IMG/VR virus record: IMGVR_UViG_3300022690_001597 | Location: 1-27,794 of that record | DNA: 27,794 bases | Strand: one strand, 5' to 3' | Origin: a virus | In this document: positions 8,285-24,320 of the stretch, piece by piece | How the letters are laid out: each line of letters opens with the position of its first letter | Numbering within the stretch: position 1 is the first letter of the stretch | Notes under the pieces: model-generated | Databases searched by the model: none | The model's input: only the letters and a program-made list of their open reading frames with translations | Told to the model about the DNA's origin: nothing | Translations under genes and position numbers: made by a program

Positions 8285-8596
8285 TTAGAGGTTAAGAGCT
8301 TTAATGCGTTCCTTGACCTTCTTTACCGTCTCTCTTCTCTTTTGCATCTGCTCTGGAGTATATCTAGTCTCTTCATACTCATAGCTCATTGGTTTCTTTT
8401 TTATTAGATCAACTGAGGACACATTGCTCCATTGCTCACCGTGCACCTCTCCTTCCATGTCTTCAAATGCAATAAACTCCTTGTTCATTACTTTTTCCAT
8501 GACTGAACCTGCTACTTCAAGGGTAACGTGAATAGGGTCTTTGTTCTTGTCTCTGAAGCGGACAATGTGCGTGGCTATTTTTTTTTGGAGTTGCAT
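8285..8596 (-). CDS. Hypothetical protein, 103 aa
   Basis: The N-terminal half is beta-rich (THIVRFRDKNKDPIHVTLEV, EFIAFEDMEGEVHGEQWSNV). The C-terminal half is a basic helix (TPEQMQKRRETVKKVKERIK). It starts ATG after a T/A-rich leader and is collinear with its minus-strand neighbours. No named family recognised; the overall look is of a small phage accessory protein. Confidence 0.65.
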   Translation of the reverse strand: MQLQKKIATHIVRFRDKNKDPIHVTLEVAGSVMEKVMNKEFIAFEDMEGEVHGEQWSNVSSVDLIKKKPMSYEYEETRYTPEQMQKRRETVKKVKERIKALNL

Positions 8597-9130: not shown

Positions 9131-9913
9131 TTATCTAACAGATTTTAAAATTTCCAACTTCTTCCTTGGCGTTGTCTCAGCTACAAACTTCTGAGCCTTC
9201 GCCTTGTTTATGTGTCCTTCTATTTTGGACTGCTTTTCTTCTAATTCCCTGTTCATCCACTGCTGAAGAGTAAGATTGTGATCTAGCTTGTCCCGAAACT
9301 TCTTCTGAGACTTTTTATCTGAAAAAGCCCATATCTTCATGTTATCCATAGTTTCATCTCTCATTTCTTCTCCATACTTCACTGCTAAATTTTCGTGTTC
9401 TTTTTCTGTTAGCCAAATACAATCTAAAAATAAATTAGTTCCTTCCCTCTTTCCAAAAACTTTTTCTTTTATAAGTTCAGGTTTAGATTCAGGTTCAAGT
9501 TCAGGTTTAGTTAAAGTTAAGGTTGTCGCAGGACGTATGCAGTCTGTACCCACCTTGTGCCCAGCCTGTATCTTATCAAGTATGTATGCGGGTATCTCAG
9601 CCTTAGCGTTTTCAATACCTTTTTTTATAGAAGGATTTTCATTTTGATACTTTGAGAAGTTTTTTATGTGTACCCACCCATCAAAAAACACAACCTTACC
9701 AGCCTGTTGCAGAGTGTATATAGCCTGTTTTAAGTCCTTCTTATTTATACCTGTCTCAAATTCAATAGTTCTCATAGAACACTCATATATGCCACAAAGG
9801 TTAGTGTGCTCATTTGTGAGTATATATATAAATAGGAGTTTCTCATGAGTTTTAAGCTCTTGTATGAATGAATCACTCCATAGCCGTGTATTTATTATTC
9901 GCTGCTTAGCCAT
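9131..9913 (-). CDS. Replisome organizer / replication-initiator-like protein
   Basis: The N-terminal ~100 residues (RIINTRLWSDSFIQELKTHE, KLLFIYILTNEHTNLCGIYE, FETGINKKDLKQAIYTLQQA) match the winged-helix opening of phage replication organizers of the DnaD/replisome-organizer type. These bind the origin and recruit host helicase. A Thr/Pro/Glu/Lys linker (TLTLTKPELEPESKPELI) follows, encoded by short direct repeats that may be iterons. The C-terminal half is charged and helical. It overlaps the end of the HNH gene by 8 bp. Helicase loading itself is not shown here. Confidence 0.75.
   Translation of the reverse strand: MAKQRIINTRLWSDSFIQELKTHEKLLFIYILTNEHTNLCGIYECSMRTIEFETGINKKDLKQAIYTLQQAGKVVFFDGWVHIKNFSKYQNENPSIKKGIENAKAEIPAYILDKIQAGHKVGTDCIRPATTLTLTKPELEPESKPELIKEKVFGKREGTNLFLDCIWLTEKEHENLAVKYGEEMRDETMDNMKIWAFSDKKSQKKFRDKLDHNLTLQQWMNRELEEKQSKIEGHINKAKAQKFVAETTPRKKLEILKSVR
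9473..9510. repeat. Iteron-like direct repeats inside the replication gene
   Basis: AAGTTCAGGTTTAG occurs exactly at 9473-9486 and 9497-9510 (24-bp period), with a partial copy ATTCAGGTTC at 9487-9496 between them. More AGTTAAAG-type degenerate units follow to about 9522. Repeats inside an initiator gene resemble the lambda O arrangement, where they form the origin. They could equally be just the coding consequence of a Pro/Glu linker. Confidence 0.45.
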
Positions 9914-10442
9914 CTTGGTCTTCTCTTAAATGCTTTAAAACACCGCACATATATGTAAATTTTTCATCATTAGGAACATAATATCTATCCCAAGCAATAT
10001 CTATAGACTTTAATATCATCTCAGCGCTATTACTTTCTAATAAACGCCTAATATCTTTTTCTCCTTTTTTTGTAATATAATTCTCTCCATCAGAGGCTTC
10101 TTCCCAAGCGTCTAGAAATATTTTTATCTCTTTTTTCTTTAATTTCTTTGACTTTTTTATATACCTATAATATGCATTCAATTGAGACTTTTTCTCCTCA
10201 AGCTGTTTCATTTCTAATTCAAACTTTTCTCCCTTTGTCTTTGATATATCAACACTGTCACCAGCCTTTCCTCTATTGCAATCAAAACAAGAAGTAATCA
10301 AATTGATTTCTTCATCGCCTCCTCCATCCTTTCTTGAAACCATGTGATCTGCTTCAAGTATCACGTCAGGTGGTTTTCTTCCACAATATTGACATGTGAA
10401 ATTATCTCTTTTAAATATCTTGAAACGAATTCTTTTTGAAAT
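9906..10442 (-). CDS. HNH endonuclease family protein with long C-terminal domain
   Basis: The sequence RFKIFKRDNFTCQYCGRKPP, ILEADHMVSRKDGGGDEEIN, LITSCFDCNRGKAGD is a full HNH/zinc domain: Cys17 and Cys20, DH at 32-33, Asn near 47, Cys52 and Cys55. The first GTG or ATG codon in this frame lies inside the domain. The family normally begins M-S-K-R-I-R-F, and ISKRIRF begins at an ATT codon (10440-10442), so I infer an ATT start; the frame is closed by TAA at 10470. The ~120 residues after the nuclease are Lys-rich and helical (YYRYIKKSKKLKKKEIKIFL) and do not belong to the HNH core. The gene precedes the replication protein. The start region overlaps one arm of the inverted repeats at 10451-10540. 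Confidence 0.75.
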   Translation of the reverse strand: MSKRIRFKIFKRDNFTCQYCGRKPPDVILEADHMVSRKDGGGDEEINLITSCFDCNRGKAGDSVDISKTKGEKFELEMKQLEEKKSQLNAYYRYIKKSKKLKKKEIKIFLDAWEEASDGENYITKKGEKDIRRLLESNSAEMILKSIDIAWDRYYVPNDEKFTYMCGVLKHLREDQDG

Positions 10443-10450
10443 TGAAATTT

Positions 10451-10787: not shown

Positions 10788-10875
10788 GAAATCGTCAAAG
10801 AGAGAAAGCACAAGCATAGCCTTCGAGCAACGCTTCTAGTCGCTTAATCAGAGACATGAATTGATCTTTTATATA

Positions 10876-11136
10876 GCGGGGGTGGCGGAATAGGTAAACG
10901 CTAGGCAGTTTGCGCTGCCGAGAAGCAAAGGACTCTGTGATCTTAATCGAAATACTCAGAGAATGACTAGCCGCCAAATATTTTGAGAACAGAGTAGTAG
11001 AGTGCCAAGCTGCGGTGTTCCCTTGTGTGAGAGTTGATCCCGTGTGGCAACGGAGTACCCTGACAACATATACGGGCTATAAGGACTCAAAGCTGAATAT
11101 TTGGTCTCTGTAGGGTGCAAATCCCTGCCCCCCGCA
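10876..11136 (+). ncRNA. tRNA-Leu-like cloverleaf with ~190-nt insertion in the variable region
   Basis: Acceptor GCGGGGG (10876-10882) pairs with CCCCCGC (11129-11135), then A. A leucine-type D arm follows (TGGCGGAATAGGTAAACGC, 10883-10901). The next hairpin is GGCAG/CTGCC (10904-10908/10915-10919), whose loop TTTGCG has 6 nt instead of 7. The T arm is TAGGG-TGCAAAT-CCCTG (11111-11127), with G replacing the usual T55, and one extra C lies before the acceptor. Between the anticodon-like arm and the T arm are 191 nt (10920-11110). They are closed by GAGA/TCTC (10920-10923/11105-11108), CCAAATATT/AATATTTGG (10974-10982/11096-11104) and TTGAG/CTCAA (10983-10987/11086-11090). Inside are a CTCTG/CAGAG hairpin and interleaved GTTG/CAAC and CCCGT/ACGGG pairings, a possible pseudoknot. 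No CCA is encoded. Alternatives are a tRNA with an intron or part of a larger RNA. Confidence 0.7.
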
Positions 11137-11242
11137 ATCGTAGCTTAGACTGAGGTGGAATGATTCATATCTCCTCGGTCAGAAGGGTATCAAGGACGGA
11201 GCGCGCCTTTCTCTCCGATCCCGTCTCAGTCTAGGTTACGAT
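11137..11242 (+). ncRNA. Long hairpin RNA domain, copy A
   Basis: ATCGTAGCTTAGACTGAG (11137-11154) pairs along its full 18 nt with CTCAGTCTAGGTTACGAT (11225-11242), using two G-U pairs and no mismatch. The enclosed ~70 nt contain further pairings (GAGG/CCTC near 11153-11177, GGAG/CTCC near 11200-11218). It begins one base after the tRNA-like element. Its arm sequences recur in copy B at 11325, so this is a repeated RNA module. Function unknown. Confidence 0.65.
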
Positions 11243-11248
11243 CAAAAT

Positions 11249-11320
11249 GTGGGAGTTTGAGGGAATATATTGAATACCTCAAATGGAATTCCTTCTGGAG
11301 TGACTTTCAATAACTCCCAC
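11249..11320 (+). ncRNA. 72-nt structured element between the two long hairpins
   Basis: GTGGGAGTT (11249-11257) pairs with AACTCCCAC (11312-11320). Inside, TGAGG/CCTCA (11258-11262/11277-11281) and TATTGAA/TTCAATA (11268-11274/11306-11312) are interleaved, so they form a pseudoknot or alternate. The closing stem is followed by ACCA. Size and 3' ACCA recall a tRNA, but no T arm can be drawn. It is separated from its neighbours by about five bases on each side. Confidence 0.5.
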
Positions 11321-11324
11321 ACCA

Positions 11325-11404
11325 ATCGTAGCTTAGAATGAGGTAAAGGGGAACGGTTCCAGCTAGCATGGTCACTGCTCCTTTACTTCTTTCTAGGTTA
11401 CAAT
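11325..11404 (+). ncRNA. Long hairpin RNA domain, copy B
   Basis: The arm at 11325-11351, beginning ATCGTAGCTTAGAATGAGGT, pairs with 11378-11404, ending TCTAGGTTACAAT. This gives 27 nt of helix with five G-U or A-C-type transitions and one mismatch. The apex holds a GGAAC/GTTCC hairpin. The first 13 nt are identical to copy A, and the 3' arm repeats TCTAGGTTAC. Differences between the copies are mostly transitions that keep pairing, which points to selection on structure. The next gene begins 20 bases later. Confidence 0.65.
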
Positions 11405-11423
11405 TTATATTTTTATCTTCATT

Positions 11424-14549: not shown

Positions 14550-14966
14550 ATGAAAAATTTGTATATTCCATTTTCAATTTTATTATTAATTCTTCAGGTA
14601 GCATGTCTAATTATTTTATATTATGACGATCCAATTATAATAATAAAAGACAATCCTAATTGTGCTGTCAATATTATTGCAACCCCTTCTATTATTGAGA
14701 ATGAAAAATCAATATTTCTTGGAAAATTTGGAATGGATGAAGATGGGAATACGCTCCAAAAAAAAATGTTTATTGAAACAGGAGAAATTTATTATGGATA
14801 TTCAGATATACAGAAAAAATTAAGTATTGAGAAAATCAGAGAAACCTTGCGATGCGATGACAAGAAAATTGCTTTAATAAAAATAGCAGAAGGAGGAATT
14901 ATTGAGGCTGTATGTGAAGATAATTACTTCCATGAAATATCAAGAACTTATTTTAACAAAAAATGA
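14550..14966 (+). CDS. Membrane-anchored hypothetical protein
   Basis: 138 aa. The N-terminal hydrophobic segment (LYIPFSILLLILQVACLIIL) is a signal anchor or lipoprotein-like signal (a Cys lies at residue 19, but without a clear lipobox). The soluble remainder has a beta/alpha pattern and two cysteines. It overlaps the NinB-like gene by ATGA. Unlike its neighbours it uses mostly AT-rich codons. No family recognised. Confidence 0.6.
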   Translation: MKNLYIPFSILLLILQVACLIILYYDDPIIIIKDNPNCAVNIIATPSIIENEKSIFLGKFGMDEDGNTLQKKMFIETGEIYYGYSDIQKKLSIEKIRETLRCDDKKIALIKIAEGGIIEAVCEDNYFHEISRTYFNKK

Positions 14967-16678: not shown

Positions 16679-17218
16679 ATGACCGACCTTGAGTTACAAT
16701 CAGCGGAGAAATGTTATTGTGAGAAATGTTTTGAAAAATTGAAGAAAGAAACTCCTTTGGTTATTACTAAAGAACCAACGGCAGAATATCCAAAGGTAGT
16801 CGCAGAAATTGACCTAAGTAATTCCGATCATGGTTATACGTTGCCAACGGCAAAATGGAGAGAGGGATTAGAAAAGAAATTAGGAAATATTGCCAGGAAT
16901 GCAAAACTAGGTACAGATACATATATAAAAGAATTAGAGAATTGTTCAAAGGAAGAGCGTGGACATAGGATGCAAGCATCTAGATTTCCTATTCTGCAAG
17001 ATAAAACTACAGTTGGATTTGTACCAGAGGAATTAATTGATTTATTTGAAGAAGAAATGAAGGAAGCCCTCCAAGCCCAAGAGGAGAAACACAAGAAGGA
17101 AATGGAGGAATTGAAGGGGAAGATAAGAGAGAGAAAGGACTATCCAACACATCCTAATAAGCAGTTCGATGAAGGATTCAATGCAGCGATAGACTCCTGT
17201 ATAAGTATATTTTCCTAA
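16679..17218 (+). CDS. Coiled-coil protein carrying a duplicated 24-residue cassette
   Basis: 179 aa. It opens with a cysteine pair (CYCEKC, residues 12-17). Then comes KVVAEIDLSNSDHGYTLPTA-KWRE (residues ~39-62), encoded by DNA identical to that in the gene at 19668. The rest is a long charged helix (EEKHKKEMEELKGKIRERKD) and a C-terminal FDEGFNAAIDSCISIFS. Function unknown. Starts after CCCTTTAATTTTAATGTT. Confidence 0.65.
   Translation: MTDLELQSAEKCYCEKCFEKLKKETPLVITKEPTAEYPKVVAEIDLSNSDHGYTLPTAKWREGLEKKLGNIARNAKLGTDTYIKELENCSKEERGHRMQASRFPILQDKTTVGFVPEELIDLFEEEMKEALQAQEEKHKKEMEELKGKIRERKDYPTHPNKQFDEGFNAAIDSCISIFS
16791..16864 (+). repeat. 74-bp perfect direct repeat, copy 1
   Basis: Identical to 19744-19817. 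It runs from CAAAGGTAGTCGCAG to GCAAAATGGAGAGAG and codes in the same frame for the same cassette in two genes that differ on both sides. Confidence 0.9.
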
Positions 17219-19261: not shown

Positions 19262-19671
19262 AAACACGAGAAAAATTCAAAAAAGCAGTCATTGAAGCAA
19301 TGCATGGGCTTCCTTATGAACAGGCTATTAAGAAAGAATTTTATGCTAACAAACAAAAGTGTTTAATCAAGAAGAATAAGATTGTTTCAACGAAAGATGG
19401 GATAATTACAGAAGGAAAAGAAAATTTACTCGGCTTTCCTATCACCATAGGAAGAGTTATGCAGGCGTTGACTAATATACTTAATGAGCAGATATTGTAC
19501 GACACCATTGCAAGATGTGTGGTAATTCCTTATAAAACATATGATCATGGTGGCGTAGAGAGAACCAATCTCCTAATCAAATGGAAACTCACCAAAGAAA
19601 ACGGTCAAGAATGTGCGGATGACGATCAAAGCGATGAAACAATTGATAAACTTTTAAACTTATTAAAATGA
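19258..19671 (+). CDS. Hypothetical protein, 137 aa
   Basis: I chose ATG at 19258 (MKTREKFKKAVIEAMHGLPY) because it overlaps the upstream TGA as ATGA; the frame is open a little further upstream. The block LGFPITIGRVMQALTNILNE resembles a phage family I recall from other genomes, and the C-terminus is acidic (ADDDQSDETIDKLLNLL). Function unknown. Confidence 0.68.
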   Translation: MKTREKFKKAVIEAMHGLPYEQAIKKEFYANKQKCLIKKNKIVSTKDGIITEGKENLLGFPITIGRVMQALTNILNEQILYDTIARCVVIPYKTYDHGGVERTNLLIKWKLTKENGQECADDDQSDETIDKLLNLLK

Positions 19672-20150
19672 AAACACCTACACCACCACAGGCTGAAGAT
19701 TGCACCGACGAAGAGAAGGATAAAATGCTTGAAAATGGAAAAGCAAAGGTAGTCGCAGAAATTGACCTAAGTAATTCCGATCATGGTTATACGTTGCCAA
19801 CGGCAAAATGGAGAGAGAAAATAGAAGAATTCGTGAATCAATGTTCTGTTGACATGGTAGCAATGAAAGAGATGATTGAAGATTTAGTAGAAAAAGCCCT
19901 CTCCCAGCAAAAGAAAGAACTCGAAGAACAAGATGTAACCTCAGATGCTTATAAGATTGGATTCACTTCTGGTTTTCAGAAAGGTTATAAAAAAGCGAAG
20001 AAAGAACTAGAGGATAAGCACCAGAAGGAGATGGAGGAGGAAAGAGAAAGTATTATCGAGGAATTATCGCAATTTGCACATAAAAAGAATCCTCCTGATA
20101 AAGTACAATATTTATTTTATCTTGATGAATTATTAGAAGATTTTTCTTAA
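19668..20150 (+). CDS. Second coiled-coil protein with the duplicated cassette
   Basis: 160 aa, starting in an ATGA overlap. KVVAEIDLSNSDHGYTLPTA-KWRE at residues ~26-49 is identical to the protein at 16679, at DNA level too. The rest is a long Lys/Glu coiled coil (KKELEDKHQKEMEEERESII) ending YLFYLDELLEDFS. The two proteins share architecture (cassette plus coiled coil) but not flanking sequence. Confidence 0.65.
   Translation: MKTPTPPQAEDCTDEEKDKMLENGKAKVVAEIDLSNSDHGYTLPTAKWREKIEEFVNQCSVDMVAMKEMIEDLVEKALSQQKKELEEQDVTSDAYKIGFTSGFQKGYKKAKKELEDKHQKEMEEERESIIEELSQFAHKKNPPDKVQYLFYLDELLEDFS
19744..19817 (+). repeat. 74-bp perfect direct repeat, copy 2
   Basis: Identical to 16791-16864, 2.95 kb upstream and in the same orientation. 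Recombination between them would delete about six genes. Confidence 0.9.
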
Positions 20151-22843: not shown

Positions 22844-23512
22844 TTAGTCTAGTAACCCTGCCCGATCAGCAGCAACAATGACCTGCTCTTTCGTTACTCC
22901 TGTTTTAGAAACTTTGGAAATCAATCCAAGGTTTTTCAAAATATACCCAAGAGTTTTGCTGCCAACTATTTCTTGAGGATTTTCCCACTTTGTAGCTATT
23001 CCACGAGCAATAGCTTTTTCCACTGACTCTTCTGCCCATTCAGAAATTTCTTTTTCTTCAAAAATGAAGTCGAATATTTCTTTTTTATTCAAATTATTTC
23101 CCGGACATTGAGTGGCTTTTACGTCTTTATGAAATATCCAGTCTTCTCTTTTGAGTGCATGGCGGGCAGAAACAGCCGAAACTAGACGCTTTAATTCGTT
23201 CGATTGATCTTTTCCAAGGTTTTGGATTGAGAAGTTACCAGCAAGAGCAATCGAAATACTCTTATCATTCAAAAACCATTTTCCTGAATGGTATCCGATC
23301 TCTTCTTCAGGTCGTGTGTTTTTTGAATTTCCTTCTAAATCCACAATGTAATGGTAAGCTATATGATAGCCTTTTCCATTCTTGCCAGTCCTGCCCCATC
23401 TTCCAGTATGGAGTCGTGCCTTATGATTTTCATTGATTCCTTTTAATACTTTTTTGAGTGGCAGCATTGCCCCTGCCGTGTGGTGAATTACACCTTTTGT
23501 TATTTTTCGCAT
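22844..23512 (-). CDS. N-acetylmuramoyl-L-alanine amidase (endolysin)
   Basis: 222 aa. Amidase_2/PGRP fold: VIHHTAG (His10/His11), YHIAYHYIVDLEGN, IGYHSG, SISIALAGNF and HKDVKATQCPG (His128, Cys136), giving the zinc ligands His, His and Cys. It would cleave the amide between muramic acid and the stem peptide to release progeny. The C-terminal ~60 residues (SEWAEESVEKAIARGIATKW, ENPQEIVGSKTLGYILKNLG) resemble an SLH-like cell-wall-binding motif. It is the last gene of the lysis group and starts 3 bp after the frameshifted membrane/excalibur gene. Confidence 0.92.
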   Translation of the reverse strand: MRKITKGVIHHTAGAMLPLKKVLKGINENHKARLHTGRWGRTGKNGKGYHIAYHYIVDLEGNSKNTRPEEEIGYHSGKWFLNDKSISIALAGNFSIQNLGKDQSNELKRLVSAVSARHALKREDWIFHKDVKATQCPGNNLNKKEIFDFIFEEKEISEWAEESVEKAIARGIATKWENPQEIVGSKTLGYILKNLGLISKVSKTGVTKEQVIVAADRAGLLD

Positions 23513-23515
23513 AAA

Positions 23516-24090
23516 TTATTTACATAAATTTTCACAAGGCACTCCATCCCCATCACCATCTAACCTTTTATCTCCACACTCTTCAAAGAAAAACATAGCC
23601 TCTTCGCAGGTATTCATCTCCCCGCAAGAGTAGGTATCTCCACAGAAGAGGATAATTTGGAGTTTTTTTTTTCAACTTCCGGGACGGAATACCTAAGATC
23701 CGGAGGGATAACCCATCCCAATATTTGTTGAATCCTCACATCCATTTCGGATTGATTATCAGCAACAGTTCTAACCTCAGAATAAGTAGTTTGTAATATC
23801 CAAAATATCAAAAAGAAAGAAACCCCTAATACGCTACCTGTTACACCAATTATCGCACCAAAAGCCTTCCATCCCACAAAACGATCCTCTTTTGTTTCAT
23901 TCTTATTTTCCAAAGAATTAAGCCGTTTTTTTGTTTCTGGAGAAGGATTCATGTGCTCCTCCATTCTCTCCTTCCAGCCATCAATAGACTCCCATATCTT
24001 CTCTTCTATCTTCTCACAAAGATCCTTGAATTGCGCAGCGCTCAAAACATTGTTATTCGCCTTTGATGAGATTTTCTTAGGTTTTTTCAT
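23516..24090 (-). CDS. Membrane protein fused to excalibur domain by -1 frameshift at A10
   Basis: ATG at 24090 overlaps the holin TGA (ATGA). Frame 0 gives 158 aa: a charged coiled-coil N-terminus (FKDLCEKIEEKIWESIDGWK), one membrane span (AIIGVTGSVLGVSFFLIFWI), a short tail, then ...KLSSSVEIPTLAGR. At GAA AAA AAA AAC (23673-23662) a canonical A AAA AAC slip gives instead LQIILFCGDTYSCGEMNTCE, EAMFFFEECGDKRLDGDGDG, VPCENLCK. This is a typical excalibur calcium-binding motif (DxDxDG, three Cys pairs). It ends at 23516, just before the endolysin ATG. Total ~191 aa. No start exists for the excalibur frame alone (TGA precedes the A run). Programmed frameshift, transcript slippage and an assembly indel are all possible. 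Confidence 0.75.
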
Positions 24091-24320
24091 AATGAGATTG
24101 TTTCTTTTGCGCGAATTCTTCCAATAATAGCTCCAACAGAAGTAATAAGAGTCACAAGAGGAACACCAATTGCAACAATGCTCTCAGTAATAGTACGAAC
24201 CTCTTCAGTAGGGATACCATATCCCAACAAGGAAAGAATGAGAGCAAATGTACTCACGATAGCACCGACAGAAGAACGATTGATAGTGCCTGATTGCCAA
24301 GGTTTTTTAGAGTTTTCCAT
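24087..24320 (-). CDS. Holin
   Basis: 77 aa with two hydrophobic segments (SVGAIVSTFALILSLLGYGI; ITESIVAIGVPLVTLITSVG) and the closing block AIIGRIRAKETISL. The opening W-x-S-x-T-I-like start (KPWQSGTINRSSVGAIVSTF) and the (I/Y)GR+KA end are typical of a phage holin family. It would form lesions that let the amidase reach the wall. It overlaps the next gene by ATGA. T-rich leader upstream. Confidence 0.8.
   Translation of the reverse strand: MENSKKPWQSGTINRSSVGAIVSTFALILSLLGYGIPTEEVRTITESIVAIGVPLVTLITSVGAIIGRIRAKETISL

Follow-up and report, generated by a model that had tools for sequence, protein, structure and literature searches.

In the lysis cluster of an uncultured phage, the virus record IMGVR_UViG_3300022690_001597, a calcium-binding Excalibur domain is encoded in the −1 frame relative to the end of a membrane-protein gene, and the two frames meet at ten consecutive A's. 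The question that this locus raises is whether the two parts are made as one protein and, if so, how the frame is changed. The stretch of DNA analysed, referred to here as the window, is the whole record of 27,794 bases; it is AT-rich, has 41 listed open reading frames (ORFs) and carries its lysis cluster on the minus strand in the order holin-like protein, single-pass membrane protein, Excalibur stretch (−1 frame) and Amidase_2 endolysin. The features of the cluster are as follows.

24087..24320, minus strand: small membrane protein, holin-like (77 aa, with hydrophobic segments)
23614..24090, minus strand: zero-frame membrane-protein ORF (158 aa, one transmembrane (TM) segment)
23663..23672, minus strand: A10 run, meeting point of both frames (from the sequence; T10 on the plus strand)
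23662..23668, minus strand: A AAA AAC heptamer in zero-frame phase (from the sequence)
23516..23662, minus strand: −1-frame Excalibur stretch, 48 aa plus TAA (Pfam, PHROG and genome search)
23614..23617, minus strand: ATGA, the zero-frame TGA overlapping an Excalibur-frame ATG (from the sequence; potential 33-aa peptide)
22844..23512, minus strand: Amidase_2 endolysin, 222 aa (PF01510, E 4.6e-16; without a Shine-Dalgarno sequence)

The stop codon of the 77-aa protein and the start codon of the 158-aa ORF overlap as ATGA, and several other neighbouring gene pairs in the window also overlap by 4 nt. From its position and composition the 77-aa protein may be the holin; it had no Pfam match and its best PHROG was phrog_30920 (unknown function) at E 0.031. 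At the other end of the cluster only 3 nt separate the Excalibur stop codon (TAA, 23518-23516) from the endolysin ATG (23512), which bears out the description of the Excalibur frame, in a first-pass annotation of this DNA, as ending directly ahead of the endolysin.

Two reading frames meet at the longest homopolymer of the record

Near the end of the ORF at 24090-23614 the sequence reads GTT GAA AAA AAA AAC TCC, the ten A's occupying 23672-23663; the record of 27,794 bases has no other homopolymer as long. A_AAA_AAC is in the phase of the zero frame, as is A_AAA_AAA one codon earlier; both the sequence and the coordinates (on the minus strand) agree with the first-pass annotation, which had pointed to GAA AAA AAA AAC as holding a −1 heptamer in phase. 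In the −1 frame the last stop before the Excalibur stretch is a TGA (23674-23672) whose A is also the first of the run, and the frame is open from there to the TAA at 23518-23516. The frame must therefore change within an interval of about 55 nt, which begins at the run; by our arithmetic the longest homopolymer would fall within that interval by chance with a probability of about 55/27,794, or about 0.2%. It is clear that the feature is real and was correctly seen, with the two frames meeting exactly at the A10. One extra A at the run gives a joined protein of 191 aa, and one A fewer gives a short unrelated tail.

Programmed transcriptional slippage calls for a run of at least nine A's or T's at the frame boundary, and here there are ten A's. 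Programmed −1 frameshifting calls for an X_XXY_YYZ heptamer in phase; A_AAA_AAC is such a site, but the 41 listed ORFs hold 56 in-phase heptamers of this type, six of them A_AAA_AAC, and the slippery site alone is not unusual against chance. When the genes were shuffled by synonymous codons, runs of at least ten A's or T's arose at a mean of 1.18 per gene set, with one or more in 77% of shuffles, and two other genes of the window carry runs of nine, at 8578-8586 and 14758-14766; selection need therefore not be invoked for the run. How far the −1 frame stays open was considered as evidence and rejected, as four of the 56 heptamers have longer −1 ORFs downstream.

The −1 frame encodes a complete Excalibur domain

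The 48 residues of the −1 frame match PF05901 at E 8.9e-10, covering the full model (positions 2-36 of 36) with 39.2 bits against a curated cut-off of 22; they also match phrog_5854 (E 3.6e-15) and had a match at E 6.5e-11 in a genome search. The hallmarks of Excalibur domains are a DxDxDGxxCE loop and two invariant cysteines (PMC5137146), and both are present, within DGDGDGVPCE and NTCEEA. The match is unambiguous, and the complete motif (DGDGDGVPC) previously noted in this frame is confirmed by it.

The domain had also been said to have no start of its own. This does not hold, as an ATG at 23617-23615 is in frame and overlaps the TGA of the short frame as ATGA; the position of this ATG is within the extended domain, upstream of both invariant cysteines and of the DxDxDGxxCE loop. 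Twelve residues of the −1 frame between the run and this ATG (ILFCGDTYSCGE) include C, G, C, G and E at family-conserved positions. These 12 residues were scored with a family profile made from 123 distinct Excalibur copies in the fetched loci, and only 6 of 30,314 stop-free 12-residue readings of the window scored as high. Since family-conserved residues score so well there, the Excalibur frame probably codes for protein ahead of its only ATG as well, from a few codons past the run onwards. Furthermore, an in-frame start lies upstream in the same ORF for all except one of the 152 pattern-matched Excalibur copies from the fetched viral and genome loci, the partner being a nuclease, another domain or a secretion signal. 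Taken together, the conserved residues and the in-frame starts of the other copies favour a single membrane-Excalibur gene over a mini-gene opened at the ATGA. The earlier proposal that slipping joins the membrane protein to the Excalibur domain is thus upheld at the level of the frames, by the run at their exact boundary and the conserved −1 residues ahead of the internal ATG. The sole exception among the 152 copies (L099:2500-3400) is an Excalibur fragment without a start in a Pasteurellaceae contig, apparently a decayed host remnant.

The Excalibur domain would be extracytoplasmic only if joined to the TM protein, which has a single TM segment with its basic N-terminal side predicted inside. 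Such a placement fits because the cysteines and the calcium loop make sense outside the membrane, where members of the family act; the Excalibur domain of CbpL is unfolded without Ca2+ and folds upon binding it (PMC5137146).

The membrane protein and its counterparts in related phages

The 158-aa ORF has a lysine-rich N-terminal part, one TM segment at about residues 76-98 (AFGAIIGVTGSVLGVSFFLIFWI) and a C-terminal tail, predicted to be outside, of about 55 residues. Searches of Pfam and PHROG gave it no significant family match; the phrog_937 hemolysin was reached at only E 0.21, and the profile for XhlA-like lysis proteins was not matched.

Relatives found through the terminase comprised 70 loci with identities of up to 55%. 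None of the 31 terminase-relative records (besides the window) has the Excalibur domain or the membrane protein, and Amidase_2 is present in three of them. The amidase relatives (8 loci) likewise have no Excalibur domain, and in several an XhlA-like protein is encoded upstream. In L246 and L247 (terminase relatives with Amidase_2) and in L251 and L253 an XhlA-like protein, with a coiled N-terminal part and a C-terminal TM segment, precedes the endolysin. The 158-aa ORF occupies the same position in its own cluster; pairwise comparison with these proteins gave E values of 0.035-0.11, none of them significant, and the membrane protein of the window is not demonstrably homologous to them. Between the XhlA-like protein and the amidase, two of these loci encode a single-TM protein of about 155 aa with a conserved ectodomain (L247:2761-3234 and L251:3482-3943).

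In IMG/VR there was no close relative of the membrane protein or the endolysin, and there were two distant ones for the portal; the phage collection, queried with the membrane protein and its DNA, returned no relative. A degenerate pattern across the run, allowing 7-13 A's, found neither a second copy nor a near-identical contig with another run length in IMG/VR. Matches to the Excalibur profile were sorted by their similarity to the joined protein, which would have brought true relatives to the top; those from IMG/VR, and those among the matches listed from 84,980 genomes, were confined to the Excalibur part. Among the sequences reachable here, the Excalibur extension appears to be private to this record. 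The comparison of homologues with and without the frame break, suggested by the first-pass annotation, found no homologue with the split arrangement in the viral and phage collections, among the matches listed from the genomes or among the terminase and amidase relatives.

Explanations of the frame break

The reading preferred here, held tentatively at a probability of about 0.43, is that of one membrane-Excalibur gene of the lysis cluster, broken at the A10, whose joined protein arises through slippage of RNA polymerase. On runs of at least nine A's bacterial RNA polymerase adds or skips A's, and the dnaX gene of T. thermophilus slips on A9 (PMC1088944); slippage at the A11 of C. rodentium tssM1 restores the frame in 20-25% of products (PMC4256274), and it is predicted for Chlorobi dnaX, which has an A10 (PMC3711429). 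If the ten A's are real, slippage of this kind is the likeliest source of a joined protein. The run would then be A10 in the virus itself, interrupting the frame of a single gene for a single-pass membrane protein with an extracytoplasmic, calcium-binding Excalibur end. The polymerase would add or skip A's at the run to give a mixed population of mRNA, in which the unslipped message would encode the 158-aa membrane protein, with a putative separate role, and the message with one more A the 191-aa membrane-Excalibur protein; the Excalibur domain would fold once it meets calcium on the outer side of the membrane. Ribosomes on the slipped message would stop 3 nt before the endolysin start and may thereby aid endolysin translation.

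Alternatively, the run may carry a one-base change of length without function in a gene that is normally in a single frame, the true product being the 191-aa protein; the change would have come about through an error of assembly or sequencing, or through a recent slipped-strand indel in the sampled phage. This is almost as likely; in its favour, the break sits exactly in the longest homopolymer, the zero-frame tail beyond the run is just 16 codons, which is about the length that an unselected frame would give, and the other Excalibur copies are in frame with their partners. Comparative support for a conserved break is absent from the collections searched, and the authors of GeneTack explain singletons of this type for the most part by gene overlaps, indels and sequencing errors (PMC3711429). 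Against it, the terminase, portal and endolysin genes are intact ORFs, both ORFs that contain runs of nine look unbroken, and IMG/VR gave no near-identical contig in which the run differs in length. Short-read sequencing, if that was the method used here, usually resolves a stretch of ten A's correctly. Slippage is ranked slightly above an indel for this reason, and because a real A10 would be expected to slip whether or not it is selected. That the run is a selected site, setting the ratio of plain to calcium-binding form and coupling endolysin output to slippage, since ribosomes would reach the endolysin start on slipped messages only, is judged very unlikely. Functional slippage is recognised by homologues that share the broken arrangement (PMC1088944, PMC3711429), of which none came to light in the collections searched, and nothing was found in favour of a deliberate use of the break as a switch by the phage, which is not supported.

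Two further explanations do without slippage of the polymerase. A restart at the ATGA, with two overlapping genes, would yield a 33-aa mini-Excalibur followed by the endolysin, and the run would be irrelevant. The overlap does lie in the Excalibur frame and resembles that between the holin-like and membrane-protein genes and those of several other neighbours; both invariant cysteines and the DxDxDGxxCE loop are downstream of the internal ATG, and the short distance to the endolysin ATG would also suit such a gene. It is nevertheless very unlikely, as family-conserved residues of the −1 frame lie upstream of the ATG, where the extended form of the homologues starts, while a 33-aa peptide without signal or membrane segment would stay inside the cell, away from calcium and oxidising conditions, and the longest homopolymer would be at the frame boundary by coincidence. 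Programmed −1 ribosomal frameshifting at A_AAA_AAC, giving a fixed ratio of short to long form, was the switch first proposed to tune lysis, and this too fails to find support; it is judged very unlikely. The heptamer is in phase, less than 50 nt ahead of the zero-frame stop, and a perfect 7-bp stem (CCUCUUC/GAAGAGG) is possible 10 nt downstream, but slippery heptamers are common in these ORFs, the fold downstream is little better than that of shuffled sequence (z −1.38, with 22 of 200 shuffles as good; z between −0.7 and −1.4 when the folded stretch begins beyond the heptamer) and no homologue with the site was found. Upstream there is only a weak GGAAG; nearly no gene in this phage uses a Shine-Dalgarno sequence, and so a stimulator of the dnaX type is not expected. 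In E. coli, moreover, frameshifting is reported to occur less readily at A_AAA_AAC than at A_AAA_AAG (PMC5009743). For the A10, transcriptional slippage or a one-base indel is more economical than a programmed −1 shift.

An alternative genetic code was considered and rejected, as the 41 listed ORFs end in TAA (23), TGA (14) and TAG (4), and TGA is therefore a stop codon.

Possible coupling to the endolysin

Ribosomes that read the zero frame stop 101 nt before the endolysin ATG, as against 3 nt for those in the Excalibur frame. Translational coupling of the Excalibur frame to the endolysin is possible, since the endolysin has no Shine-Dalgarno sequence and its upstream leader scores below the median for this phage. 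Same-strand gaps of 85-139 nt, however, are present elsewhere in the window too.

Relation to known systems

In genes decoded by poly-A slippage (C. rodentium tssM1 with A11, T. thermophilus dnaX with A9, Shigella mxiE) a long A run in the coding region stands between the short product and a C-terminal domain read in a different frame, as in the window; tssM1 yields an inner-membrane protein in both forms. Those genes have been tested and some are conserved, whereas the case described here is known from sequence alone, and no relative with the break was found for it. Frameshifts of the dnaX type and in phage tail chaperones (lambda G/GT; SPP1 17.5, UUUUUUC) likewise have an in-phase X_XXY_YYZ before an open −1 frame; unlike these, the window has no stimulator that could be found, no conservation, a different class of gene and A_AAA_AAC in place of A_AAA_AAG. 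With the Excalibur proteins (PF05901, phrog_5854; CbpL, YokF, nuclease-Excalibur proteins and small secreted phage proteins) the window shares the complete domain, which in the joined protein would also be outside the membrane. The known partners, however, are a nuclease or a secretion signal, while here the partner is a single-pass membrane protein of a lysis cluster and is out of frame. The cassette of PBSX and SPP1 has the order XhlA-XhlB-endolysin; in the relatives a protein with a coiled N-terminal part and one TM segment comes before the amidase, and the membrane protein of the window is in the same place; it differs from the XhlA-like proteins of the relatives in the residues that follow its TM segment, in the Excalibur stretch and in the lack of a significant match.

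If the joined protein is made, the lysis cassette of a phage would include a membrane protein with a calcium-binding domain on the outside, which none of the relatives examined has, and the list of bacterial genes read through poly-A slippage would gain one from a lysis cluster. Should the break be an indel, it would illustrate that slippery heptamers, common in AT-rich phage contigs, are weak evidence of programmed frameshifting without conservation or reads.

Other features of the window

A Shine-Dalgarno sequence precedes nearly none of the 41 listed ORFs; most starts have a T/A-rich leader at about −16 to −8, which hints at the type of host. The block VVAEIDLSNSDHGYTLPTAKWRE is present in both of the ORFs 16679-17218 and 19668-20150 and represents a duplicated domain of unknown function. 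On the minus strand at 9906-10450 there is an HNH endonuclease-like ORF with a CQYCG motif in frame upstream of its listed GTG start; there is no ATG, GTG or TTG before the motif, which would imply a non-standard start or another frame break. The region 10870-11420 is free of ORFs and strongly structured (fold z −4.3), and nothing was identified in it by ARAGORN (introns also allowed) or Rfam. It contains a 29-nt direct repeat (11128-11156 and 11316-11344), each copy of which opens a long hairpin, and its first part resembles, by eye, two halves of a tRNA.
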